From positions 1 to 36,178 of IMG/VR virus record IMGVR_UViG_3300042691_001351: a DNA stretch of 36,178 bases; one strand, written 5' to 3'. Made by a program: the position numbers and the translations under genes. The DNA comes from a virus. A model generated the notes under the pieces. That model was not told the origin of the DNA, did no database searches, and saw nothing but the letters and a program-made list of their open reading frames with translations. This document shows, one piece after another, positions 1-30,300 of this stretch. Position 1 is the first letter of the stretch. Every line of letters begins with the position of its first letter.

Positions 1-1993
1 GAGCATTAGCAGTTTGATCTATAATATCCATTGGCATTGCTTCTTGTAGATCAGTTGCCATTTTAGCCACTACATCATCAAAGTTAGCACCAAACTCATC
101 AAACGATTTTTCAAATGGTTTTGCTAGTTCTGCCATGTCTGGACCTTTAACTGTAGTAGCAGTGCCGCCGCTAACTGTAGTTTTAATATCTTGAGATATT
201 TTGTTAAGGTCTAAACTAGGAATTTTAGGCATTTCAAACTTGGGCATTTCCAATTTAGGCATTTCTAATTTGCTAGGCATGCCTGCTGTTATTTTGCTAA
301 AATCTAAATTCTTTGATAAGTTACTAAATGCACTAGCAGCACCTTTGTCCATCATACCTTTAGCAAGATTCATCTGTTGCTCGCCATTTAGAACAACTTC
401 ACCTGGTTTAGTAATTTCTAATATTGCACCAACATCTTCAAACATCTTGCCAGCACCATAGGTACCGCCTGAACGTTTTGCAGGAGTTACTGCATCTACT
501 AATTTTTCAGCACCTTTGCCCACATTACCAGATATTGCTGCTGCTTGATAGCCAACAGCATTCATTGCACTGCCTCTGGGTGCTTCATTATTTTCGTACT
601 GCGCTCTGCCTTTGTTTAACTCTCCTTCTGTTGCACCAATATTTCCTTTTTCTCTAGCGCCTGGAATAAATGCTGATCTTGCACCTAATACTGTATCAGC
701 TAGTTTGTTTAGTGCAGGATTTAAATCTTTCTGGATGGGAACAACTAGGCTATTTTGAATAACACTACCGGCATCTTTAAATCTCTGTTCAGCATTGACC
801 ATGGCTTTAGTTGCGCCAGTTGATGCATCTTGTTCTTTAGTGGCTTTCTCAATAGCCATTTTTCTTATTTCTGCATCGGACTTACCTTTATTCTCAGGAT
901 CTTTCTTTAACAATTCAATGTTATCAGCTAGTGCCTTGTTAGCCATGTACAATCTAGCACCAGTTTCTCCAGCGGCACCTCCAAACGTATTCAACATGGC
1001 TACATTTTGAAAACTAGCATCTTTATTGTTTTTAGCAGATTCATCCATGGCCCTTGCATTGTGCTCAGCAGCTTTTTCAAAATTACCAGACGCTGCTGCT
1101 TGTGCAGCTTTTGCGCTTTCAATACCTGCTCGGCCAGCCATTACCTGTTCATTGGCTGCTTGTTTGCTCATCACCTGACCATAGGTAAATGTTTCTTTAA
1201 ATGACTGCCCTAATCCTAAAGCTTCAGCTTTGGTATATTCTGCAGTAATCTTTGTTTTGTACTCTGCGGCTTCTTTCTCGCCCATGTTACGAGTAGCCTG
1301 CTCTAACTTAATTTGAAAGGCTGCATCTGCTTGCAATTTCTTAGCGCCTTCCATCTGTTCCTGACGACTCTTACCGGTTAACTTGGCAGTTAGGTCCATT
1401 TCATTAGCCAAGGCAGTTGCTGATTCAATTGCAATTTTATCTCGTGCTTCGCCTTTTCGCATGCTGTTACCAATCATGCCAGCTTGCAATGCCAGTGTTT
1501 CATTTAGATCTTTATTAGTAAGACCCATTTGTCTTAGTCTGTCAGTAGTTTCCCCGTACTGGTCAAACATAACCTTACTGGTTTTAGCAAATTCTACAGC
1601 ACCTTGATTAATAGTTCCGCCGAATCCTGCTAGGAAGGTTGAGTTCTTGCCAACTATATCAGCAAGCTCTCCCATTTCCATGCGGGTACCAGCTGCAGCG
1701 GCGCCCATACCAATAATATCATTTCCAAAAGTAATTCCAGAATTTGACAGCTGCCTCCAGGTACCTATGCCTGCAGCCATTTCTTTTTCTATTCGTTCGT
1801 ATGCTTTGCCCAGTGAATCTAGACCTTTTCCTGCTGCTGTTATAGTTCCAGTAAACGCTGTGGTAGGACTTTTCATCAGGTCAAATAATGATCCTGCTTT
1901 TTCTCCCATAGCAGCATTTGACCCACTACCTTTACTGGTTAGCTTGTTTAATGCTTCGGCTATGAGTTTTGCATCTTCTTTTTCTAGTGCCAT
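1..1993 (-). CDS. Tape-measure-like tail protein, C-terminus beyond the left edge
   Basis: An open leftward frame runs from ATG 1993 to the window edge (about 664 codons with no stop). The start is supported by an AGGAAA Shine-Dalgarno 6 nt upstream and a late promoter at 2037-2044. The protein is rich in Ala, Lys, Glu and Met, mostly predicted helical, with Gly/Ala stretches near residues 75-125 and a low-complexity helical core (residues about 200-400), as in phage tape measures. The phrase PGEVVLNGEQ near residue 545 resembles the segment often found close to tape-measure C-termini. A K(L/F)EMP pentapeptide repeat follows. The protein would span the tail tube lumen, set tail length and be ejected on infection. 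It sits divergently beside a gp26-family gene with a frameshift signal, which fits a tail-assembly locus. No sequence match to T4 gp29 is visible, so the assignment rests on composition and context. Another large internal virion protein is the alternative. Confidence 0.6.
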   Translation of the reverse strand, partial: MALEKEDAKLIAEALNKLTSKGSGSNAAMGEKAGSLFDLMKSPTTAFTGTITAAGKGLDSLGKAYERIEKEMAAGIGTWRQLSNSGITFGNDIIGMGAAAAGTRMEMGELADIVGKNSTFLAGFGGTINQGAVEFAKTSKVMFDQYGETTDRLRQMGLTNKDLNETLALQAGMIGNSMRKGEARDKIAIESATALANEMDLTAKLTGKSRQEQMEGAKKLQADAAFQIKLEQATRNMGEKEAAEYKTKITAEYTKAEALGLGQSFKETFTYGQVMSKQAANEQVMAGRAGIESAKAAQAAASGNFEKAAEHNARAMDESAKNNKDASFQNVAMLNTFGGAAGETGARLYMANKALADNIELLKKDPENKGKSDAEIRKMAIEKATKEQDASTGATKAMVNAEQRFKDAGSVIQNSLVVPIQKDLNPALNKLADTVLGARSAFIPGAREKGNIGATEGELNKGRAQYENNEAPRGSAMNAVGYQAAAISGNVGKGAEKLVDAVTPAKRSGGTYGAGKMFEDVGAILEITKPGEVVLNGEQQMNLAKGMMDKGAASAFSNLSKNLDFSKITAGMPSKLEMPKLEMPKFEMPKIPSLDLNKISQDIKTTVSGGTATTVKGPDMAELAKPFEKSFDEFGANFDDVVAKMATDLQEAMPMDIIDQTANA
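227..271 (-). repeat. Three 15-bp tandem units encoding K(L/F)EMP
   Basis: Three adjacent 15-bp units (227-241, 242-256, 257-271) differ at only a few bases and encode a five-residue period of Lys, Leu/Phe, Glu, Met and Pro in the tape-measure-like protein. A fourth, degenerate Met-Pro occurs 18 bp further on. The proline every fifth residue would break helix, giving a short extended linker between the helical body and the C-terminal part. Confidence 0.8.
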
Positions 1994-2054: not shown

Positions 2055-2876
2055 ATGAATCATAATCCATTACAGAAGTTTTTTAGACAACCAAAGATCT
2101 ACATCAGTCTTCCTAGTAAAGGGCTGTACTATGAACCAGGAACACTAGTAGGCGACTATAATAATGTTCCTATTTTTGCAATGAGCGGCATGGACGAAAT
2201 CATAATGAAGACTCCAGATGCACTGTTTACTGGTGATGCTACTTCAAAAGTAATAGAAAGTTGCTGCCCGTACATTAAGAATGCTAAACTAATGCCAGCT
2301 GTTGATATTGATGCGTTGCTAGTAGCTATTCGTATTGCTACATTTGGCGATAAAATGAATGTTACTAAAAAATGCGATAACTGTAGCGAAGAAAGTGACT
2401 ATGAAATTGAATTAGGTCGTATTCTTGAATACTTTAGTAACTTAAAGTTTGTTAATAACATTAGTATACTTGAAAATTTAACTATTAAAATTCGTCCCTT
2501 ACAGTACGAAGAAATGAATTATTTTAGTATTGAGAATTTTAAATTACAAAAAACATTATTTCAAACTTCTGACCTGCCCGTAGATGAGCAACAGCAACAA
2601 ATAGATCAACTCTATAAAAATTTATCAGAATTACAGTTGCAGTTATTTCTAACAGCAATTGAATCAGTTCAAGTAGAAAACGAAGTAGTTACTGATAAAG
2701 CATTTATTGAAGAATGGCTTAAAAATGCTGACCGTGAATCATATCAATTGATTAAGAAAAAGCTAGAAGAAAATAAAGAAGTATGGGATATGCCTGTACA
2801 AAAAGTTATTTGTGGTAACTGTAATACAGAAAACACTATTGCTGTTACATTGGATCAATCAAGTTTTTTCGTCTAA
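2055..2876 (+). CDS. 26: gp26-family baseplate hub assembly protein (T4_baseplate family)
   Basis: The 273-aa product has the pattern of the T4 gp26 family (Pfam T4_baseplate): an N-terminal LPSKGLYY motif (residues 19-26), an MDEIIMKTPDALF block (46-58), a paired Cys at 70-71, and the LLVAIRIATFG block (88-98). Two CxxC pairs (C107/C110 and C253/C256) probably bind one zinc ion between the middle and the C-terminus. T4 gp26 is 208 aa, so this is a longer member. The family acts in hub assembly and is not proven to be a major virion part. Its last codons contain a T TTT TTC slippery heptamer in the correct phase and a downstream stem. The gene therefore probably makes two products: the 273-aa form and a 349-aa -1 frameshift fusion. 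It starts 61 bp from, and divergent to, the tape-measure-like gene, a position that recalls the frameshifted tail chaperones of other tailed phages. Confidence 0.82.
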   Translation: MNHNPLQKFFRQPKIYISLPSKGLYYEPGTLVGDYNNVPIFAMSGMDEIIMKTPDALFTGDATSKVIESCCPYIKNAKLMPAVDIDALLVAIRIATFGDKMNVTKKCDNCSEESDYEIELGRILEYFSNLKFVNNISILENLTIKIRPLQYEEMNYFSIENFKLQKTLFQTSDLPVDEQQQQIDQLYKNLSELQLQLFLTAIESVQVENEVVTDKAFIEEWLKNADRESYQLIKKKLEENKEVWDMPVQKVICGNCNTENTIAVTLDQSSFFV

Positions 2877-2944
2877 GGCTCTTGAGACTCACTAACTCTG
2901 AAATTGAAGATTATGTTAGACAGCTTGAAGGTGAGACCAAGAGC
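2864..2944 (+). promoter_or_regulatory. Predicted programmed -1 ribosomal frameshift signal
   Basis: The heptamer T TTT TTC (2864-2870) fits X XXY YYZ exactly in the zero frame of the gp26-family gene, two codons before its stop (taa at 2874-2876). After a 7-nt spacer, GCTCTTG (2878-2884) pairs with CAAGAGC (2938-2944), and CTCAC (2888-2892) pairs with GTGAG (2931-2935). This gives 12 bp with a 3x2 internal loop. The -1 frame is open from 2825 through the junction and continues into the downstream frame to 3103. All three parts of a classical signal (heptamer, spacer, structure) are therefore present. Efficiency cannot be judged from sequence. Confidence 0.8.
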
Positions 2945-3103
2945 ATCAAAGATGATATATTTAGAATCAGTTGGTATATGCGAGGCGGAGTAAACAGTGT
3001 TGATCTATTTCACATGTACTCGTACGAAGATCGCATGATCATGAATGATATTATCAAAGATAATATAGATGCTACGAAGAAAAGCGGTTTAAACTTGGTG
3101 TAA
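2882..3103 (+). CDS. -1 frame extension of the gp26-family protein (73 codons)
   Basis: This short frame encodes a predicted helical peptide with the motif WYMRGG and a C-terminal run ending in KKSGLNLV. It has no good start of its own: the first possible codon is TTG at 2882, it lies inside the predicted frameshift stem, and it has only AAGG at 3-nt spacing upstream. Read through the -1 slip, the junction is S270-F-F-R-L-R-L followed by this segment, giving a 349-aa fusion. It is therefore best annotated as the C-terminal domain of the frameshift product, analogous in layout to the T domain of lambda gpGT. I do not recognise the segment by name; a gp51-like hub-assembly role is possible. Its last 32 bp overlap the end of the convergent 367-aa gene. 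Confidence 0.72.
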   Translation: MRLTNSEIEDYVRQLEGETKSIKDDIFRISWYMRGGVNSVDLFHMYSYEDRMIMNDIIKDNIDATKKSGLNLV

Positions 3104-4175
3104 ATGTTGGGTAAGTAGCACCAGGTTTTTTAGGAATTGCATCTAAAGGATTAGCTTTTCCATTTCGTAATGCACTACCAACTGCATTTACAACTCCTGG
3201 ATTAGCAAAGAAGTCACCGTCTGTTCTAAGAAATCCATCTTTATCAGTGGCTCTAACTGGTCCTATGGTTATAGAATTTGCGGCATCTTTAGCATCGGCT
3301 GCTGCATCAGCCGCAGCACTAGGTGCAATCTTTGATCTAGCAGCATCTGGAACTCCAGGTATATCTTTTCCTGTTTTTTTCTCTAGCCATGCTTCTGCAT
3401 CGTCAATTAATCCTACACCAAATGTTATTGCTGTAGAGACACCCTTGCCTAATAGTATAATGCTGCCGGCAAACTCTTTTAAAAATGCCTTGCCACTATC
3501 AGTTTCAAACCAAAGTAATAATCCAGCGGCGCCTAAACGTCCAAGTGGTTCAACAATTTTACTACCAAATGCTGTAATAATTTTTCCAGGAACACCTAAC
3601 ATAGGCATCATGCTTACTATCTTTCCAAAATTCTTTACTAGTCCTGCGCCAAAGCCTGCAGATAACGCAATACTCAGAGTGGCCATGCCTAGCAATTCTT
3701 CTCTAATAGCAATAGCTTCTGCTCTAGCTTCTTCTTCTGACTTAAATCCTTTGAACTGATTTTCTTCTGGAACCGCAGTGCCTGCTTTAATTGCAGCAGC
3801 AAATGATTCGAGGTCATCTTCAACTACTGTTATTTTAGTCCAGTAATCATATACATAATATCCAATACCTAATAATGAAATTATGTCAAGTAGTTTAGCA
3901 GGAAAACTTTTTACAAGAGCTTGTCCACGTGCTGCCGCATTGCCTACTTCTGCACGTTTAGCAATCATAGCTAGACGTTCTTTTCCTTTAAGACCTTTAA
4001 GAGAATACTTGCCCATACCAAATATATTAGTAGCCTGACGGGCTTTCCTAGCAGCTTGTGTAGCTTTTAATGCTTTTCCTCTTTGATAGGCTTTATATGC
4101 ACCTGTAGCTGCCCCTAAGAATTCTAGAGTAACCTCATTGTTATCAGAACTAGCAGTAATTTCAGTAATCTTCAT
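3072..4175 (-). CDS. Hydrophobic, probable virion or ejected protein of unknown function (367 aa)
   Basis: No family is recognised. After a short N-terminus comes a strongly basic segment (residues about 25-75, many Lys/Arg). Several hydrophobic stretches follow (about 92-110, 165-185, 190-225 and 233-255), then an Ala/Asp-rich linker (about 285-300) and a polar, Pro-rich C-terminus. There is no signal peptide. The mix of a basic DNA-binding-like region and glycine-rich hydrophobic helices suits an internal virion protein that enters membranes during DNA delivery, but this is inference. It has its own late promoter (TATAAATA at 4183-4190) so close to the ATG that the transcript would be nearly leaderless, and no Shine-Dalgarno is visible. 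Its 3' end overlaps the convergent frameshift extension by 32 bp. A rightward antisense frame inside it (3247-3759) is shorter and composition-driven, so this strand is preferred. Confidence 0.7.
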   Translation of the reverse strand: MKITEITASSDNNEVTLEFLGAATGAYKAYQRGKALKATQAARKARQATNIFGMGKYSLKGLKGKERLAMIAKRAEVGNAAARGQALVKSFPAKLLDIISLLGIGYYVYDYWTKITVVEDDLESFAAAIKAGTAVPEENQFKGFKSEEEARAEAIAIREELLGMATLSIALSAGFGAGLVKNFGKIVSMMPMLGVPGKIITAFGSKIVEPLGRLGAAGLLLWFETDSGKAFLKEFAGSIILLGKGVSTAITFGVGLIDDAEAWLEKKTGKDIPGVPDAARSKIAPSAAADAAADAKDAANSITIGPVRATDKDGFLRTDGDFFANPGVVNAVGSALRNGKANPLDAIPKKPGATYPTFTPSLNRFSS

Positions 4176-4250: not shown

Positions 4251-4639
4251 AATAATGATTAATGCGAAGCATTTAAATATTATCTAGATTGTTCAGTCAC
4301 ACTTTGCCCTTGCGGGCAAAGAAATAAAATCAACATTATCTGAGTTGCACATTTATCACTTAGCGTTACAGCGTTACAGAGGCGGTCATCCGGTACCTCG
4401 AGCTGTGTCTTTATTATGACGGCGGCCCGCATGTATACGCTAACATACATGCAAACGTAGGGTATTTCTCCCTTCTTTTTGCCTTTAATTCCTTGAAACA
4501 ATCAAACCGCGGCAGCTTTGCGATCTTGGTCCTGTAAAGGATACTGATTGAGTGCTCTTAACGGCGAGAGACTACGGATTCCTGCGACCCTGGGTCCAGG
4601 TTTCTTCTGTTCGGCACACGAAATTAGCCTGTGCGAGCT

Positions 4640-5077
4640 TTAACCGTTTAATTGTTTGCCTTTGATATGACTTCCGTGTACACGAACAGCAATGTGTCCA
4701 TTGTAGTAGTCGTCACTTTCGAGAACACGTCTTGTAAATTGTTCTCTTGCCTCTATGTATGAGCATTCAGCCTTTGATGTGCAGTAGTAAAGTATTTCTC
4801 TTTTGAAATTCTCTGCGCCTAGAGTTTCTATATCTTTTGTTAGATGGTCGCTTGAGCCATAGTATTCACGCCAGTCAGAATCAATTTTAGAACGAATCTT
4901 CTTTTTCTTCTTTATGCCGTTTTTTTGTTTTACTGTTTTGTAAGTTGTTTTAGAGAATTTTGCTAATTTCTTGCCTATATATTTGCGACCAGTTATGTTA
5001 TTAGTGATGCAATAAACGAATCCAATACACTCTTCGGGTAGGGTTTCAACTAACGCATTTTGATAATACCATGACAT
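4640..5077 (-). CDS. GIY-YIG-type putative endonuclease
   Basis: The 145-aa product contains the GIY-YIG core: GFVYCIT (residues 19-25) stands for the GIY strand, KYIGKK (32-37) for YIG, and YYGSS lies at 72-76. The expected metal-binding Glu is in YIEAREQF (E109) and the terminal Asn in YYNGH (N126). A Lys-rich insertion (about 50-62) lies between the two core parts. Small free-standing GIY-YIG proteins of this shape are common in T4-like phages and are often labelled Seg-like homing endonucleases. There is no separate DNA-recognition domain, so a housekeeping nuclease role is equally possible. ATG 5077 is chosen over an in-frame TTG at 5080. It is the last gene of the leftward early operon, 3 bp after the preceding gene, with no clear ribosome site of its own, which suggests translational coupling. 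Confidence 0.75.
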   Translation of the reverse strand: MSWYYQNALVETLPEECIGFVYCITNNITGRKYIGKKLAKFSKTTYKTVKQKNGIKKKKKIRSKIDSDWREYYGSSDHLTKDIETLGAENFKREILYYCTSKAECSYIEAREQFTRRVLESDDYYNGHIAVRVHGSHIKGKQLNG

Positions 5078-5080
5078 CAA

Positions 5081-17900: not shown

Positions 17901-18359
17901 GAAATTATCTACCATCCTGTAAAATACAAAGTATTATTTGGAGATAAGGCATCTTCAGATGTACAAGCAACATTTAAAATTGTAAAAAATTCTGAAGTTG
18001 TTATTAGCGACAATGATGTTAAATCAAAAGTATTATCTGCAATTAACGAATTTTTTGCTTTAGAAAATTGGGACTTCGGCGGAGACTTTTATTTTACAGA
18101 ACTATCAGCATATGTAATGAATAGGCTAACACCTAATATTGTTAATTTTATTATTGTACCTAAACAATCATTATTGACGTTTGGAAGTCTATATGAAATA
18201 CGTGCAGAAAAAGATCAAATATTCATCAACGGTGCAACAGTGAGCAATATTGAAATTATCTCAGCAATAACTGCAAGCAAGATTAGAAGCTCAGGCATAA
18301 TCACTGTATCTTCAACTACTGCTAGCCAACAAACTATAACTAGTGCAGGAACTAACTAA
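14928..18359 (+). CDS. 6: gp6-like baseplate wedge protein, enlarged (1143 aa)
   Basis: The N-terminal 120 residues match the gp6 family of T4-like phages: a TDRQNRL start, FENLRRVMVNYIRENYPEDF, SSEYLALIDLIAFLGQSIAF and a RDNFLELAERRESVLRLA helix, followed by a GSGLLKFTT strand. A baseplate-J-like core continues to about 450 (DRVSLSFSDGTFGNLPQGSF; then SNAPATYYTQNRMITGEDYN). T4 gp6 is 660 aa; the extra length appears as a beta-rich region between about 560 and 960. The C-terminal segment (about 1000-1110, PVKYKVLFGDKASSDVQATF then NEFFALENWDFGGDFYFTEL) again looks like the gp6/J-like end. gp6 dimers form the continuous ring of the inner baseplate. ATG 14928 is preferred over TTG 14916 because of the leader spacing and the better start codon. 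The stop overlaps the next start (TAATG). Confidence 0.9.
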   Translation: MSTTDRQNRLLVAEDWKRIYQSFRNADFQSYDFENLRRVMVNYIRENYPEDFNDYIESSEYLALIDLIAFLGQSIAFRIDLNARDNFLELAERRESVLRLAQLLSYNPKRNIAGSGLLKFTTVSTSQNVYDSNGRNLSGQVISWNDPANANWYDQFIKVINASLPVNRQFGNPDDKNEIYGIPTEQYRFQASNTDVPVYGFTKAVDGRVLPFEVVSTTFKDKTEIYEEPPAVGNRLAFIYRNDGRGNGSANTGFFIHFRQGILNQGTFTINQPSTNETVDIDATNINNDDVWLYKLNSAGLESEYWAKIPALEGNNAIYNSLKKSIRNIYSVVTRTDDRVSLSFSDGTFGNLPQGSFRVYYRQSNGISYTINPKDIRNIAIEIPYVSNLNQMETLSVTMNLQSSVANASETESNTSIKSNAPATYYTQNRMITGEDYNISPLAVNQQVVKVKAVNRSSSGISRYFDLVDPTGKYSKTNLFADDGALYKQEYTDSFRFSYTTQTDIEAVIYNQLLETLKSKQLRDYYYSKFTAKTVGDENVSWFNKTTDVNQSTGYIKNESNVPFKLGSYTSTSLRFVTAGALVKFVAPTGKYFNKANNNALVTGTATVSHATTNLWCKIVSVSGDGSNNNTGTLVDGSGTVVLNDVIPTGAILSQIIPAWRTTLDTNTINTMVDLVFSNKPFGLRYDVETRTWKIVFEVNLNTAADFSLGNQGNNSNQQLDASWLLLFTTDSEFYTVTSRLLRFIFESDQQLRFYFDASDKIYDTRSNTIVKDKIKVLSINTDPATSGGTSPYTYDRDWEISEEYRGLDGYVDTKKIQVTFSDSDDDSVVDDPSIFDEIVDPTTNQYVVLELYTIAQGQEDYRWVDNSNNTVVILSTEPISGVNGQYYYFIDTDVVKQYSSTDGFIVSLNYRVYVGRSNIKFQYIHNADYESRIDPGLTNLVDVFILTKDYDKTFREWLDGSRTVEPLAPSSDFLYNLLSTELNKIKSISDEIIYHPVKYKVLFGDKASSDVQATFKIVKNSEVVISDNDVKSKVLSAINEFFALENWDFGGDFYFTELSAYVMNRLTPNIVNFIIVPKQSLLTFGSLYEIRAEKDQIFINGATVSNIEIISAITASKIRSSGIITVSSTTASQQTITSAGTN

Positions 18360-21300
18360 TGGCTAATCAAAACGAATCAAGTCTACCATTGTCTAATAGT
18401 GAAGGCAGGAAGACTGCTGACTTACTTCCTCGTTTTTACAGAACTGACAGCAACAAAAAGTTTTTGTCAGCTACACTGGATCAACTAACACAGCCAGGAA
18501 CAGTTAAAAAACTAACAGGATACATTGGAAGAAAGAACGCCAAAGCCGTTAAATCTTCTGACGTATTCATTGCAGCCACGGATGCTGATAGACAAAATTA
18601 TCAATTAGAGCCAGCAGCAGTTATTCAGGATTATTTAGGCAACACTAGTTTTTATAAAGACTATATTGATCATATCAATCATGTAGAGACTAATGGCGGC
18701 AATGTTACTAACCATGAAAGACTAAACAAGCAAGAATTTTATGCATGGAATCCACATATTAACTGGGACAAATTTGTAAACTTTCAACAGTATTACTGGC
18801 TACCTTACGGGCCCACACCAATTGAGGTTCAAGGCCAACAACAAGCTATTTCTAGCACATATACTGTTACTACAGAAGACGAAGGTGACAACTATGTTTA
18901 TATCTTCACACCAGACGGACTTACTCGTAATCCTGCACTGACATTGTACAGAGGACAGACCTACAGTTTTGATATCACTGCTCCTAATAATCCGTTTTCA
19001 ATTAAAACAGTTAGAGTAGCGGGACCATTAGAACGTTATACTGACGGAGTATCTGCAAGCGCAGTTCAATCTGGAACAATTACATTCACTGTTCCTAGTG
19101 ATTCTCCTGATGTGTTATTTTATGTCAGCGAAGTTGATGCAAACACAGGTGGTGTGTTTTCTATAAAAGATATCGATGAAAATACATTTTTAGATCTCAC
19201 AACTGATATAATTGGCAAGAAAACATACACTATGAGCAACGGTATTCCGTTATCTAATGGTATGAAATTATTCTTCACAGGCAATGTTACCCCGTCAATT
19301 TATTCTTCAGGCTATTGGTATGTTGAAGGTGTAGGTACAGCCATTAACCTAGTCTCTGATAGCGACCTTGAAATTATAAGTTCATATTCGCAAGAAACGG
19401 CTTTATTATTTGATGATGAACCATTTGATCAATCTCCATTTAGTACACTAACTTCTTTCCCTAGAGACAAAGATTATATTGTTATTAATCGTGCTAGCCC
19501 TGACAGGAACCAGTGGAGTCGTTATAACAGATGGTACCATCAAGATGTTATTATAGCGGCAGCAGCAGCAGACGGACAAGTTCCAGATATTGATCAAGCA
19601 CAACGTGCTACTAGACCAATTATTGAATTTGAAGCTGGTTTAAAATTATTTAATTTTGGTCACCAATCAAAGAAAAATGTTGATGTTGTTGATACGTTTA
19701 CTACTGATGTATTTTCTACGATTGAAGGTAGCTTAGGATATAACATTGACGGAATTGATCTAGCAAATGGCATGCGAGTGTTATTTACTGCAGATCCTGA
19801 TAGATTTGTAAACGGTAAAATTTTTAAAGTTAATTTTATTGACATAACTGAGCCCGGCCGTCGAATAGATTTCTTAGGTAACACAGGAGTTGACATTGTA
19901 GATAATATTATAACTTCTACAACTGCTCACGGATTAGCAACAGGAAATCAAATTATATATTTGAATAATGCTAATTCTAACATAGAAGGATTAATTAACA
20001 GGCAAGTATATTATGTAATGGTTATAGATGCTACACACATTAGACTTTACACTGATAAAATTTTGCTCACCCAAGCTAATATAATTAATACAGGAGATGG
20101 AATTCATACTGTAGAAACATTTAACGGGTATCGTCATCAGATCAATCTAACAGAAGACATTGACACTACTCCGATAGAAAATGAAACAGTGTTAGTAAAA
20201 ACAGGAGCACAGTATCAAGGGTCAATGTTTTGGTATAACGGAACTGTATGGAAATTAGGACAGCAAAAGACAACTATCAACCAGTCTCCACTATTTGATA
20301 TATTTGACGAAAATGGTGTTAGCTATGGTGATGTCAGTGTATATGACGGATCTAACTTTCACGGTACTAAGGTATTTTCCTACAAAGTTGGAACAGGAAA
20401 TAATGATACCGCTCTAGGATTTCCATTAAGTTATCAAAATATCAGTAACATAGGTGATATTGTTTTTGAATTCAATCTGTTAAAAGATTCATTTAATTAC
20501 AAACAAGTAATATCTGTACTAAGCAAAACTACAGATATTGGCTATTTAAAAGTTATTACAGATCTTACTACAGTAGATTATCAAAATGGATGGACTCTTT
20601 CAAAGATTGCCAATGTGCAACCTATTGTTAGAACGTTTAAAGAAAGTGAATTAATTAATAATTTTCCTATAGATGTTTACGATTTTAAAGATAAACTAGA
20701 TGATCTAGAAGTAAATGTCTACATTAATGGACTTAGACAAAATAAAGATTCATACACTGTTGTAGACGGCACTATTAGAAAATTACTAGTGTTAAACAAA
20801 GATGTGAATATAACAGATGTAGTAACATTGAAATGTTTTGCGGCACAGGCTAAAAATGAAAACGGTTATTACGAGATGCCGCTTAGTTTACAAAATAATC
20901 CATTAAATGATAACGTAACACAATTTACGTTGGGGCAAGTAATTGACCATGTTGACACGATTGTTGAACACATCACTACGTTCAGTGGAGCATATCCAGG
21001 TTATAGTAATTTACGAGATATTGGAAACATAACACCATATGGTACCCGCTTTGTACAACATAGTGGGCCTATGAATCTAAGTTTGTATCATCTAGGATCG
21101 CAGACCGCAAATATCATCAAAGCTCTTGAAAAATCTAGAAACGATTATGGAAAATTTAAACGAGCATTTATAACCTTTGCTAGCGAGTCTGGCATTGACA
21201 CGGAAACAAAACAACACGTTGATTTTATTCTACAAGAGTTAGCAAAAGATAAAACAAAAACGCAATCATACTACCTATCTGATATGTTTGCATATGCAGG

Positions 21301-24300
21301 AGGAACTAGATCTGAATACACTGTATTGGATCCTAGGGTTACTACCTATCCGTTGACAACTGCATTTAATCTTAACAGCTTGTCAAACCAAGCAGCAAAC
21401 ATTTATTTAAATGGTGAACAGCTAGTGCATGGCCGAGATTACATATTTGGCACAGATGTGTTTTTTGAAATTTTAACTACCCTAACAGAAGGCGACGTAA
21501 TTGAAGCTTATGAATACACTAGTACTGATGGATCGTACTGTCCAGCTACTCCTAGTAAGCTAGGATTATATCCGTTATTTGAACCAAAAATTTATATTGA
21601 CGATACATACCTTGAAACAACAGAAGTAATACAAGGTCATGACGGTAGCATAACAATTGCTTTCGGTGATTACCGTGATGCACTAATTCTTGAATTAGAA
21701 AAAAGAATTTTTAACAATGTAAAAGTTAATTACAATACGCAGATATTTGATATCTACAATATTATTCCTGGATACAGTAGAACTACAGCATATTCAAAAG
21801 TAGAAGTGGATAGTGTAATGAGTCAATATTTTTTCCAATGGGCTACAAATATTGCACAAGATTATACACAGCAAAATAATGCCTTATGGGATAGACTAGA
21901 TTCGTTTACTTGGAATTACAGAAATAATTCTTTACCAGATAATTCAATTTCTCCCGCATTCTGGAGAGGAATATATCGTTGGACTTTAGATACTGATCGT
22001 CCGCATACTCACCCATGGGAGTGTTTAGGATTTAGTATAGAGCCAAAATGGTGGCAAGAAGTCTACGGACCGCTCCCATACACTAATAACAACTATGTTC
22101 TATGGGACGACATTAAACATGGTATTGTAAGAGAACCTGGCGTTCCTATTAGAACCTTGTCTAAGTTTGCTAGAACTGTATTAGAAAACGGGTACCCCGT
22201 TGATGAAGATGGAAATTTAGTTTCTCCGTACAATGCAGGACACGTCAGTGGGTATATCAATCCAACAGCTGAAGGGTATTATGTATTTGGAGATGTGGGG
22301 CCAGTAGAGTCAGCATGGCGCCGAAGCTCTTATTATGCGTTCTCAGTAATACAAACAGCACTACTGTTGCAGCCTAATCATGTATTAGGTACTTGTTTAG
22401 ATCGTAGTAGAATTGTACGTAATCTAAACGATCAACTAGTTTATGCAGACACAAGTTTAAGAATTCAATTAAGTGATCTAGTATTGCCTTCTACCGCATC
22501 TAGTACGGTTAGAACAAACACTGCTGGATTAATTAACTATATTGTTGACTATATTACCAGTGATGTAACACTACTAGTGTCACAGTATGCTAATGATTTA
22601 TCAGCATTAACAAATAAAATTAGTTCTAAATTAGGCGGATTTACTAGTAAGTCCAAATTTAGATTACTATTAGACAGCAAGAGTTTGTCAAGCTCTGGTG
22701 GTGTATTTGTACCTGAAGAAAATTACGAAATAATTTTTAATGTAAGTTCTCCTATTAAAAAATTAGTCTATAGTGGAATTGTTATTACAAAATATGCAGA
22801 TGGTTACGAAGTAAGAGGCTACAATAATGATCATCCTTACTTCACATACTATCCTTATACTCTAAGTGGCAGAACAATTAACGTAGGCGGCATTAGTGAA
22901 AGCTATATTGAATGGACAGAAGGAAAATACTATGTTGCTGGTAAATTAATAAGAGCTAACAATCAGTATTACCGAGTAAAAACAACACACCAAAGCGGTG
23001 AAAAGTTTGATGTTAGTTACTATACTAGACTTGCAGAATTGCCAGTGACCGGCGGCCGTAGTGCAGAATTAAGAAAAGCATGGGACACTAGTAAAGAACA
23101 AACGGTTAGCTACGGTACTAAATTTTCTTCTATACAATCTATAGTAGATTTTATACAAGGATACGGCGTATACTTAGAAGCACAAGGATTTGTTTTTGAC
23201 GAGTTCAACGTAGATTTAAAAAATGTTAATAATTGGGAAACTTCTATTAAAGAATTTTTATTCTGGTCTACACAAAACTGGGCAGAAGGAAGTGTGATTT
23301 CTCTAAGTCCTGCAGCGAATACCTTAGTATTAAACAGCACTAACTCGGTTGTTAATAATGTAGTAGACACATTTTTTGAATATAAGATATTTAGAGTTGA
23401 TGGACAAAAATTACCAGCAGACAATATAAATTCATTTAGAGAAGGCAATCAGTTTGTACTAAAACCTGAAAACACTAATCACGGAATTTACGGTGCAACC
23501 TTATATCTAGTACAAAAAGAACATGTATTGCTGTTAGATAATACAACATTGTTTAACGATGTAATATACGACCAAGCTCCGGGTTATCGTCAAGAAAGAA
23601 TTAAAGTTTCTGGGTACTTGTCAACAAACTGGAATGGCGGATTTAATATTCCTGGATTTATCTACGACCAAGCAATTATAACTAATTGGACAGTTTGGAC
23701 TGATTATAATCTAGGAGACATTGTAAAGTATAAAGAGTTTTATTATTCAGCTAGAGCATTCCTACCTGGCGTTGAATTATTTGATAGCGACAGTTGGATC
23801 AAGCTAGACGAAAAACCTGTATCTCAAATGTTACCTAACTGGAATTACAAAGCAGATCAATTTAGTGACTTCTACAGCCTAGATAGCGACAACTTTGATA
23901 TTGGCCAACAGAAAATGGCACAGCACTTAATTGGTTATCAGAAACGTCAATATCTTGAAAACATTATTCAAGACGATGTTAGTCAGTACAAGTTCTATCA
24001 AGGAATGATTATTGAGAAAGGCACACAAAATGTCTTTAACAAGCTATTTGATGTGCTAAGTGCGGATAGTCAAGACAGTCTAACGTTCAACGAAGAATGG
24101 GCAGTTCGTGTGGGCAACTATGGCGCAAGCGACTCATTTAAAGAAGTAGAATTTAAATTAGACGAAAGCAAATTCAAACTAAATCCTCAGCCGTTTGAAC
24201 TAACATCAACAATTGATCCTACTGTTGTAGATTTTGTCTATAGACAAACTCCTGCAGATGTTTATATTAAACCAGTCGGATATACTAACAATATTTGGCC

Positions 24301-27300
24301 ACTTGCAAATACTAATGATTATTTAAGAACACCTGGATATGTTAGATATGAGGATGTTAAACTACATGTTGATACATTAACAGATCTAATTACAGAAGAT
24401 ATTTCAACTTTTATTGAAGGTGATTATGTATGGTGCGCATTTGAAGGTAGAGATTGGAACGTTTATAGATTTACACATTCTAATTTTGATATTGAGAATG
24501 TTGAATACACTGCAGGCACATTGACTATTACATGTTCTAAAATTCCTAGCATAGCTGCTGGCGATGTTTTAGGAATAGAAAACGCAAATAAAATTAAAGG
24601 CTTCCACGTTGTATCTTCAGTACAAGGCCGTAAGATTTATATTACTACAACTGTTGCGGGGTGGACTAATCCATTTGCCGACTTGGCAGAAGTGTTAGTA
24701 TACCAGTTTGATTCAGTTAGAACAGGCAGTATTGACAGTCTTAATGAAATTATTCCTACAAACTTAAAAGTTAATGAACAAGTATGGGTCGATGATAACG
24801 GCCAAGGATTGTACTCTGTTTACAATAATAATCCTGTGTTTAGCGAACAAACTCTAAGTAATTTTGCTCCTGTTTCTAATTTAAACTTTGGAAAAGCTGT
24901 AGCAATTTCTCCAAATAGATACGTAACAGCAGTGGCTACAAATAATGATTCTATTATTATATACACAAAAAGTTCATCTACTAGCCTATGGGTAGCACAC
25001 GACGAGTACCTTCCTAATCTTAATCTAGCTGACCCTGCTAACTTAAATTTTGGAAAAGAACTTGCATTTTCAACTGATGGCGAGTGGTTAGCAATCGCCG
25101 CCACTACTGCTAGTGAGGTTAACGGAAGTACATTTGCCGAACAAGGCTATGTTGCTTTATATCGTAAATCTAGCGAAAGCAATTATAATTTTGAACAGTT
25201 GTTAGTTAGCCAGGCTCCCGTAGCTTACGAGCAGTTTGGATCTAAATTAGCATTTACTAAAAACGGATCTCAGTATATCCTTGCAGTGTCTGCTCCGGGC
25301 CTACTGCAAACAGGCAAAGTATATTTTTATGAATTTACTAGCAATTCTTGGACTACGTATGCAAGTCCTAAGACTGCTGGCACAAGGAATTTGTTTGGAT
25401 ACGATATTGCGTTTTCCGAGTCAGCAGATATTTTTGTAGCATCTGCTCCTGTAGATTTAGCTAATACAGAATCATCTTATGAAGGGAAAGTTTATGTGTA
25501 TAGATTAGCTAACAATTTATATACTTTAGAAACTACCCTAGATAGTACTACAGTTGATTTAACAGCAAGAGCCAAGTTTGGGCAATCAATATCGCTATCT
25601 ACAAACGGAAAGTACCTAGCAGTTGGTGCTCCATTTACAGATGCCGATAGTGTAGATGCTGGAAAAGTTTTTGTATTCGATGTAGCTGATAATTTTAATC
25701 TGCATCAAACAATAGTTAGTAGTAAAAAAGAACTCAATGCAAAATTTGGATACACTGTTAATTTTATGAACACCGATGAGTCGTTAGTAATATTTTCAGC
25801 TAGCGGTGACATTGAAAAATTAACAACATTCATCGAAGGTGGCTTAACTACGTTTGATAATAACACATTAAGAATTGTTGATTATCAAGTAGACTCTGGT
25901 AGAGTTGATATATTTGATAGATACGCTACTAAATTTATATTTGGCGAAAGTCTTACTTCTGATTCTACTAGCATCGATCTATATGGAACATCTATAGCAA
26001 TAGCTACCGATTATATTCTAATTAGTGCTCCAGAAGATTCATTAACTTATGATCGTCAAGGTTCAGTATACGCTTATACAAGACCGCTAACTGCTAGATC
26101 GTGGATTGCAGAATATACAGAAACTAGTAGACCTGATGTTTATAAAATTAAAAAAGCATTTATTTATAATAGAACTAAAAATGTTTTAACGTCTTACATA
26201 GACGTAGTAGATGCAAGCCAAGGAAAGATTCCAGGACCTGCTGATCAAGAAATTAGTTATAAAACATATTTTGACCCAGCTACTTATTCTGTAGGTAATA
26301 GTACAGTTAATGTTGATGACGGAATGAATTGGACTAAAGATCAAGTTGGCATGTTATGGTGGGATTTGACCCGTGCTAGATTTTTAGACAATCGTGCAGG
26401 CGGAGTTGTTTACCGATCAACTACATGGAATACTTTATATGATACTGCTAGCATTGATATTTACGAATGGGTAGAAACAAAATACTTACCTTCGGAGTGG
26501 GACAAGTTATCGCCTACCGATAAAGGAAACTCTTTAGGTATAAGCGGAACTAGTCGTTATGGCGATGCGGTATACAGCGTTAAAAAGAGATATGATGCAG
26601 TATCTAAAACATTCCAAAATACCTATTACTATTGGGTAAAGAATCCAACTGTTGCTCCTAATGTTATTGGAAGATCACTGTCAGCATACAATGTTTCTAA
26701 ATTAATTTCTGATCCTATCTCAGAAGGATACTCATGTCTTGCACTAACAGGTGCTGACTCTTTTAGTCTAGTAAATGTTACTGGTCTAATAGACAGTACT
26801 GATTTTAATTTAACAGTTCAATATTGGACAGTGTCGTTAGATTATATAGGCACCAACGCACACAGCCAGTGGAAGATAATTAGTGAGCATCCTAATACTA
26901 TACTTCCTGTTGAGCTTGAAAATAAATGGATTCATAGTCTAGTTGGTAAAGATGAAAACGATAGACTAGTACCTGATATTAAATTACCATTTAAGCAACA
27001 ATATGGTATTAATTTTAGACCTCGTCAAAGTATGTTTATCAATCGTGTGGAAGCACTAAAACAATACATTGAACGTGTTAATGCAGTTTTAGCTACAAAT
27101 TTAATTGTTGATGACTACGACTTAACTGATCTAGAAGGTTATAATTCTCCTCCTAGTACAGTAACTGGCCAGTGGGATATAACAATTGACACTAATGCTG
27201 AATTACGTTTTGTGGGAGTAGCAACATTAGAACAAGCCCGCTTAACGCCAGTTATTGAAAATGGTAGAATTATTGGAGCAGACATTGTGTCAGCAGGTCG

Positions 27301-30300
27301 CGGCTACGTTAATGCTCCATATGTAATTATTTCTTCAACCGGTAAGAACGCAGTAGTTAAAACCAAAATAAATGCGGCTGGCCAAGTGACGGGAGTTGAA
27401 ATAATCAATAAGGGAGAAGGCTACCAACCCAACACTACATTTACAGTTCGTCCGTTTGCTGTACTGGTATTAAGCGACTCTAACACTTTTGATAAGTGGA
27501 CTACTTATACATGGAATAGTACAGAATTAATTTGGGATAGAGAAAAAGGACAAGCCTTTGATGTAACAAAATATTGGGACTACATGGACTGGTATGCTAC
27601 AGGATATAATCAATTTACAAAAATTGATCATCTAGTAGACAACACATATCAATTGGCACTATTAGAATCTAATGTCGGTAGTATTGTACGAGTTAAAAAT
27701 ATTGGATCAGGCGGCTGGCTGCTACTAGAAAAATATAATAATATAGCCACTATTGATTATACGCAAAACTATTCTGTTGTTGGCCGTGAAAACGGAACGA
27801 TACAGTTCTCTAGCAACCTCTACAACTATTCGGCTATAGGATACGATAGTGTGTTATTTGATTCAGCACAATATGACGATCTAGCAACCATTGAATTAAA
27901 AATAATTATTGATACAATTAAAAATAAAATTCTTATTGACGAATTTAAAGTTGAATATTTGAAGTTATTCTTTGCATCTTTAAGATATGCACTACATGAA
28001 CAAACTTTTATTGACTGGGCATTTAAAACTAGTTTTGTAAAAGCAACTCACAATGTAGGAAACTTATCTCAGAAAGTAACGTATAACAATGACAATTTAG
28101 AAAATTTTGAAGATTATATCAAAGAGGTTAAGCCTTATAAGACACAAATTCGTGAGTATGTAAGTTCATACACTGGAATAGAATATTCACAAAGTTCAGT
28201 TACTGATTTTGATTTAATTCCAACTATCAATTCTAAATTTGAAGTTGCACCAGTGACTGTGACAGTTTCTTCTACAGGTGAAATTGAAACATCTTCACCA
28301 GAAATTACATCGTATCCATGGAAACATTGGTACGATCATGTTGGCTTCACTGTACAAAGCATTGCACTTGTTGACGGTGGCTCTGGATATATAAGTAATC
28401 CAGTTGTTAGAATTGAAGGCGGGTACGGGACAGGCGCGACAGCTAAAGCCTATATTGCTAATGGTCGTGTTAATAGACTTGTATTAATATCAAAAGGTAC
28501 AGGTTATCTTAAAGCACCAACAATTATAATAGATGGTGGACTATCAGTTAATGGCGTTGCTGCCCGTGCAGCAGTGGTAATTGAAAGCGAAGTAGTTAGA
28601 TCTAATAAAATTGCAATTAAATTTGATAGAATTTCAAGAACATATGTAGTTACTGAGCTTGAAGAAACAGAAACATTTACTGGAACTGGTTCACAATTGC
28701 AATTTGTTTTAAAATTTAGTCCTAATGGAGATCGTAGTACAAGTTCTGTAACAGTTAATAACATTGATGTGTTAAGAAACGAATATACTCTGCAGACTAA
28801 AACAACTGCTAGTAGAGGATTTACTAGTTATTACGGAGTGTTAATATTAGAAACCGCTCCTGCTCAAGGCGAAATTGTTAGTGTTACGTACACTAAGAAT
28901 TTTAATCACTTATCAGCAACTGATAGAATTAATTTTTATTACAACCCAACTAGTGGTATGTACGGTAAAGACCTTGCGCAGTTAATGACAGGTATTGATT
29001 ACGGTGGTACACAGATAACTGGATTAGGATTTAATGTTAGAGGCGGTTGGATGGTAGGCACAAACGGAGAAGACATTGCGCCAGACGCATGGGAATCGTT
29101 TGATGCTACATTTGATGATAAAATCTTTTCAGCAGGTGCATCACAATATACATACGATTTAGATTATTCTCCTACAGACGGAGAAGAAATAAACGTGTAT
29201 GTAAACGGACAAAGAATTGACGATTCTGAGTTTGTAACGTACCCGATGCCAGGTAAGCCATATGTAGTAATGACGCCAATTATCGGTGATGGCACCACAC
29301 AGGTCTTTACTTTACCTAACTTAAATTTAACAATTAATGTAAATGACAAAGTTATCTTCCGTAAGAGTACCAGCGATGGCAGTTATACTCCGCTTGAGAA
29401 TGAGTACGATACGCAGTTAAGTGGCGGAGCATTTGAAGGAACAGCACTGACATCTGCAACAGGTATAGCACCTGATGACATTATTTTAGAAGGGTCTGGC
29501 TTAGTTACTCCGTTGACCAGTGCTGCTCCTGAAGAAATTGTTCCAGGACATATTTCAGATGCTGTAGCAATTAAAGTTTATCAGTTACCAACTGCTGGTT
29601 CTGCTAAGATAATGTTTAAGAATTTTATCTGTGATGGAGCAACAAATGAATTTAACATGGGTCAAATTCCTGGCAATCTTGCATCTATATTTGTTAAGGT
29701 GGATAGTAATATTCTGAGACAAGGTATCGATTACACAGTAAACTGGCAAGATAGTACAGTTACTCTATTAACAGCACCACCGCCTGCAGATAAAGAAATT
29801 TTAAGTGTAATTACATTTAGTGTAGCCAGTGAATCATTATTAGATTCTGACTATTTTATATCAGATGGCGCAACATTAGAGTACGTAACTAATGCGCCGT
29901 GGATTGAAGGAATAGGATCAGTAGTGTTAGTTGACGGGCTAGCTGTTGATTACGAGCTATTTCAGACTACAGACGCATACGCATCATTAGATAAAGTTGG
30001 TATTAGATTTGCAGCAGCTCGACCTGTTAACGAATTAATCACTTATATGATAACTGCTGATGAAAATCAAACAGCATCTATTATTAAAATTGAAACACTG
30101 CCAACAGATGGTGTGCTAGACACCTTTACACTAGCAAATCCAATAGGCACTACCGAACCATATGCAAATAATGTTTTAGTAAGTGCTGGAAATTTTATAT
30201 ATAGAACAACTGTAAATGAATATTTTGTTTTAGAAAATAATACATTAGATTATACATTAGCTGCCTATAAGTCACCTCCTTATGTTCCAACACCTACAGA

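Follow-up and report, generated by a model that had tools for sequence, protein, structure and literature searches.

A very likely programmed -1 ribosomal frameshift in the gp26-family gene of T4-like phages and related jumbo myoviruses, with products corresponding to T4 gp26 and gp51

The DNA analysed here, hereafter the window, is a 36,178-nt stretch of an IMG/VR virus contig (positions 1 to 36,178 of record IMGVR_UViG_3300042691_001351), and the features around its gp26-family gene are collected in Table 1. The product of the zero-frame ORF matched both the Pfam family PF12322 (T4_baseplate; E 2e-17, 64 bits against a gathering score of 24.5) and phrog_150 (baseplate hub; E 6e-20). The ORF ends in AGT TTT TTC GTC TAA, with a single sense codon between the heptamer and the stop, and the -1 frame contains no stop from 2825 onwards until that of the extension. 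A shifted ribosome would thus make a long form of 272 + 77 = 349 aa, and the predicted junction peptide is VICGNCNTENTIAVTLDQSSFFR if the shift occurs and VICGNCNTENTIAVTLDQSSFFV if it does not. The initial annotation had described a heptamer in exact zero-frame phase close to the stop, a 7-nt spacer and a -1 frame open from 2825 to 3103, and had read them as the source of a short and a 349-aa protein. All three elements lie where it had placed them, and the reading of two products, 273 and 349 aa long by sequence, is supported.

Table 1. Features of the gp26-family locus in the window
Feature	Position	Strand	Remarks
Divergent gene next door, may encode a tape-measure-like virion protein; continues past the window edge	2-1993	-	position next to gp26
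Zero-frame gp26-family gene, short form with two CxxC pairs	2055-2876	+	273 aa; PF12322, phrog_150
Putative slippery heptamer T TTT TTC, zero-frame phase	2864-2870	+	in-phase T6 common to 167/168 gp26-family loci
Predicted -1-frame extension after the shift	2870-3103	+	77 codons, CGT 2870-2872 to stop 3101-3103
7-nt spacer with GTC and zero-frame stop TAA (2874-2876)	2871-2877	+	read from the sequence
Proposed stimulatory stem, two parts	2878-2944	+	2878-2884 with 2938-2944; 2888-2892 with 2931-2935

Elsewhere in the window, a convergent ORF of 367 aa (3072-4175, minus strand) shares 32 nt with the 3' end of the -1 extension. An Rfam Polynucleobacter-1 RNA (4496-4639, minus strand; 86.6 bits, E 3e-17) lies directly 3' of ORF 4640-5080 (minus strand), whose product appears GIY-YIG-like by sequence reading. 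The baseplate/tail-fibre region holds a single ORF of 4398 aa (18359-31555, plus strand), an unusual length for a structural protein of a phage.

In-phase T6 runs occur five times in the 11,728 codons of the whole window, so that the site by itself is weak evidence; the window alone provides moderate evidence, and the case for frameshifting rests on conservation. We recovered 168 gp26-family loci, comprising the window's group (43-100% amino acid identity), cyanophages and jumbo phages, and an in-phase T6 was found at the same place in 167 of them. The one remaining locus (L164), in which an indel breaks the phase, was set aside. The heptamer is T TTT TTC in 161 loci and ends in T, A or G in two loci each, and the T run is exactly six long, save for a run of seven in 2 of the 167. 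Thus, the T6 is fixed and only the Z base varies, which is the pattern that a slippery heptamer permits. Close and moderate relatives (L002-L081) keep TTTTTTCG wherever the junction is present, and the T6 is also kept in the cyanophage relatives and in the jumbo phages RaK2, GAP32, 121Q, Munch, PA5oct, Atu_ph07, Phosso, SCTP-2, XacN1 and CM1.

Codon choice at fixed amino acids gave log10 P values of -20 (52 clusters at <70% amino acid identity) and -33 (92 clusters at <90%), which serve as guides only because the clusters are not fully independent. Moreover, three of the 257 codon columns scored in the window's group have an invariant third base, and these are the three heptamer codons; the first of them encodes N, S or T, yet its third base does not change. 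The initial annotation had proposed looking for the heptamer in relatives of the gene, and its conservation across these sequences is far beyond what chance would produce.

The downstream stem is convincing only across relatives, and not in the window by itself. There, GCTCTTG can pair with CAAGAGC and CTCAC with GTGAG, giving the two-part, 12-bp stem that had been claimed, with a predicted folding energy of -20 kcal/mol; compared with shuffles, this stem alone was not significant in either of two computations (z of -1.2 and -0.9). The 80 nt past the heptamer gave mean z values of -2.22 in the window's group, -1.34 in the cyanophages and -2.0 in the jumbo phages, and in all three groups the best stems begin 5-8 nt past the heptamer, inside the 5-9 nt expected of a canonical -1 signal, with background scores elsewhere. 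In a subgroup of 21 sequences, a 13-bp stem starting at the same place as that of the window has 90% of its cells paired and six pairs with two-sided changes; its covariation score is 0.338 against 0.244 in shuffled alignments (0/500), and at most 0.14 when the stem is slid along the sequence. The compensatory changes that the initial annotation had suggested looking for are therefore present in this subgroup, but no single helix extends through the family: the 3' arm shifts between subgroups, which indicates that position and stability are conserved rather than one helix. When loop complementarity was listed for a possible pseudoknot, the longest stretch was 8 nt.

The -1 tail, as judged from substitution patterns, evolves as a protein under purifying selection. 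Within the window's group, its pN/pS is 0.26 (omega 0.12) when read in the -1 frame, near the 0.20 of the gp26 body, whereas the other two frames give 1.07 and 1.41; in the cyanophages the corresponding values are 0.09 against 1.3 and 3.0. Of 83 tails from the window's group and the jumbo phages, 75 are 77 codons long; one of the outliers, SCTP-2, resulted from a mislocated site. Its consensus reads RxRLIxL...KDEIFRISWYMRGGV...YSYEDR...IIKENIE. The extension is helical in the predicted model, and a comparison of the tail fold with viral structure models returned no match.

Three other explanations of the open frame were weighed against frameshifting. The tail could belong to a small gene of its own, with translation either re-initiating past the gp26 stop or beginning at an independent start there. 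Such an arrangement is suggested by TAATG stop-start overlaps in three phages that have no slippery site (LIMEstone1, Vibrio D533 and Cygsa01), by the databases, in which gp51 is annotated on its own in P-SSM4, S-RSM4, nt-1 and phiM7, and by the window itself, where the 27 codons that open the tail offer a single start, a TTG at 2882 with a 4-nt AAGG. However, separate starts are not conserved among 40 representatives of the window's group, on which ground we rejected this explanation: in 20 of them, tail codons 1-27 contain no ATG, GTG or TTG, and a start accompanied by an SD-like match of 4 nt is present in only 8. Cyanophage tails often contain an ATG, mostly without such a match. The initial annotation's statement that the second frame has no credible start of its own thus held. 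Furthermore, the -1 frame is conserved right from the heptamer (FFR...), and an independent gene would have no need of the conserved T6, phase and stem, which makes this explanation highly unlikely.

Slippage of RNA polymerase on the T run, producing mixed mRNAs, would also make use of the homopolymer present at the site. Transcriptional slippage tracts are usually longer than six T, whereas the run here falls below this length, with seven T in just two loci, and it was rejected on this basis. Neither the conserved phase, nor the variation confined to the Z base, nor a stem at the canonical ribosomal spacing would be needed for slippage, and we regard it as extremely improbable. The chance that the open -1 frame is a functionless fossil or a fortuitous overlap is practically negligible; at 73 codons the frame is short, but its near-constant length, its occurrence in distant groups, its match to gp51 in the cyanophages and the purifying selection acting on it speak against such an origin, which was rejected on account of this selection. 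Programmed -1 ribosomal frameshifting at gp26 is very likely the explanation of the pattern.

PF12322 includes both gp26 and gp51 of T4. Of the 282 columns of phrog_150, T4 gp26 aligns to columns 14-235 and gp51 to 13-280. In profile-profile comparisons, the cyanophage short form matched T4 gp26 (prob 98.7), while the long form matched T4 gp51 over residues 6-246 of 249 (prob 98.7, E 5e-16), collinearly through the junction. The cyanophage -1 tail matched the C-terminus of gp51 (prob 96.4, E 1e-9) and phrog_634, a family of baseplate hub assembly catalysts (E 6e-31); by this sequence evidence, the protein that annotations call "gp51" is this tail. The long forms of the window's group and the jumbo phages matched each other with prob 100, those of the jumbo phages and cyanophages with prob 98.3, and the tails of the window's group matched jumbo tails with prob 99.0. 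Since a direct profile comparison of the window-group tail with the gp51 tail gave no match, the link of the window's tail to gp51 is transitive, running through relatives among the jumbo phages and cyanophages and through the body that the proteins share. Alignments by hhalign of the window-group and jumbo profiles to the single T4 gp26 and gp51 sequences were uninformative, whereas profile-profile comparison through the cyanophages worked. Against PHROG, the long form covered no columns beyond those of the short form. That T4 encodes a short and a long protein in two distinct genes, 26 and 51, lends further weight to the two-product reading.

The number of PF12322 genes per genome is two in T4 and RB43 and one in the other isolates checked (in SCTP-2 the gene fell below the HMM cut-off, and a single gene was found by tblastn). 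Gene 26 of both T4 and RB43 lacks the T6, that of T4 ending in TTC TTT. The T6 followed by a -1 tail is present in single-copy genomes of several genera, among them those of Aeh1, nt-1, LPCS28, Aeromonas G2, P-SSM4 and S-RSM4, as well as in pf16 and phiM7 (T TTT TTT) and in Moby and RHph_I1_9 (T TTT TTG). Copy number, read from these genomes, is a natural control: two-gene genomes are without the site and single-copy genomes almost all have it. The proposal that the T4-like gp26 family frameshifts in the same way is supported by the in-phase T6 in 167 of the 168 loci, but it does not extend to T4 itself, nor to LIMEstone1 (Ackermannviridae), Vibrio D533 and Cygsa01, which carry the TAATG overlap instead.

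In the relatives that have no T6, the TAATG overlap leads into a similar -1-frame tail, an alternative way of expressing the extension; in Vibrio phage nt-1, a TAATG occurs together with the heptamer. Phage S-SCSM1 has the heptamer (around position 3685), with a gp51-like tail in the +1 frame; a -2 shift, a +1 shift or a sequence error are possible explanations.

In T4, gp26 and gp51 are listed as hub assembly chaperones, gp51 being an essential protein whose function is not known and which the finished particle lacks, and it is in T4 only that a requirement of this family for hub assembly is known (PMC3004832). Cyanophage gp51 has been described as reaching about 20% of the length usual for this protein, with the first ~200 residues missing and similarity at the C-terminus, and gp51 as missing in Aeh1 only (Sullivan et al. 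2010, PMC3037559). Frameshifting would account for both observations: cyanophage gp51 seemed truncated because its N-terminal part would come from gp26, and gp51 seemed absent from Aeh1 because the -1 tail is unannotated there. The cyanophage gp51 of that study corresponds to the -1 tail; unlike the truncated gene described, it would be the C-terminal end of a gp26-gp51 protein made by frameshifting. Many deposited gp26/gp51 annotations would accordingly be incomplete.

Overall, it is highly probable, from comparative sequence evidence, that the gp26-family gene gives a short and a long protein by programmed -1 frameshifting and that these two forms correspond to T4 gp26 and gp51. Most ribosomes would terminate at the zero-frame stop and release the short form, while for a fraction the 3' stem would cause a pause as T TTT TTC occupies the P and A sites. 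The two tRNAs would then move back by one base and re-pair on TTT TTT, and the shifted ribosomes would read on to 3103, adding the helical C-terminal extension. We suggest that the two proteins may serve together as a chaperone of hub/tail assembly, in the manner of lambda G and GT, with the short form in excess, and that the extension may recruit a component of the hub, the tube or the tape measure. Frameshifting of this kind is a canonical mechanism; what appears to be new is the gene family, its range and the connection with genes 26 and 51. No report of this frameshift was found in a literature search that covered few subscription papers. From a single frameshift site, a junction peptide would also be predicted for cultured phages, P-SSM4, Aeh1 and RaK2 among them.

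The products of the gp26 locus are probably a chaperone pair of the lambda G/GT type, given their anatomy, the genetics of T4 and the tape-measure-like neighbour. The initial annotation had suggested that the family acts as a tape-measure chaperone, a role that the pair may have. In the 74 loci with upstream sequence, a homologue of this neighbour lies just upstream of gp26, mostly no more than 80 nt away. The neighbour in the window has no Pfam match, and no PHROG tape measure match was obtained in the window's group; phrog_167 (tape measure) matched weakly, only in the GAP32 relative. An AlphaFold model of the gp26 body (pLDDT 86.7) has gp26-family hub proteins as its best structural matches, and nothing clear was found in the PDB, where the best Foldseek E was 0.9 and VIA-align Z values reached at most 7.5 over short helical stretches. 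Sequence searches of the PDB with gp51 and the gp26 body returned no relative, and in sequence searches for homology to chaperones only PF12322 and phrog_150 were matched.

Compared with T4 gp26 and gp51, the products described here belong to the same family and have the same short/long anatomy, gp26 ending where the short form ends and gp51 carrying the extension; in T4, however, they are two divergent genes, without a slippery site and without a frameshift. We consider it likely that frameshifting at gp26 is old and widespread in T4-like and related jumbo myoviruses, that T4 gp51 is the long form fixed after duplication, and that genes 26 and 51 are the T4 counterpart of lambda G/GT. If so, a single family may use recoding and gene duplication interchangeably, and T4-like phages would gain a lambda-type chaperone pair.

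The tail assembly chaperones of lambda (G/GT), P2 (E/E') and Mu are made by frameshift. As in lambda G/GT, whose type of frameshift and its spread in phages are covered elsewhere (PMC10885494), the gp26 locus has a slippery site just ahead of the stop of the first ORF, an overlapping second frame that would supply a C-terminal extension, and an adjoining gene that possibly encodes a tape measure. Unlike lambda G/GT, it encodes a different protein family (PF12322, with two CxxC pairs), its neighbour is divergent and not downstream, and some gp26 lineages use gene duplication or TAATG instead of a shift.
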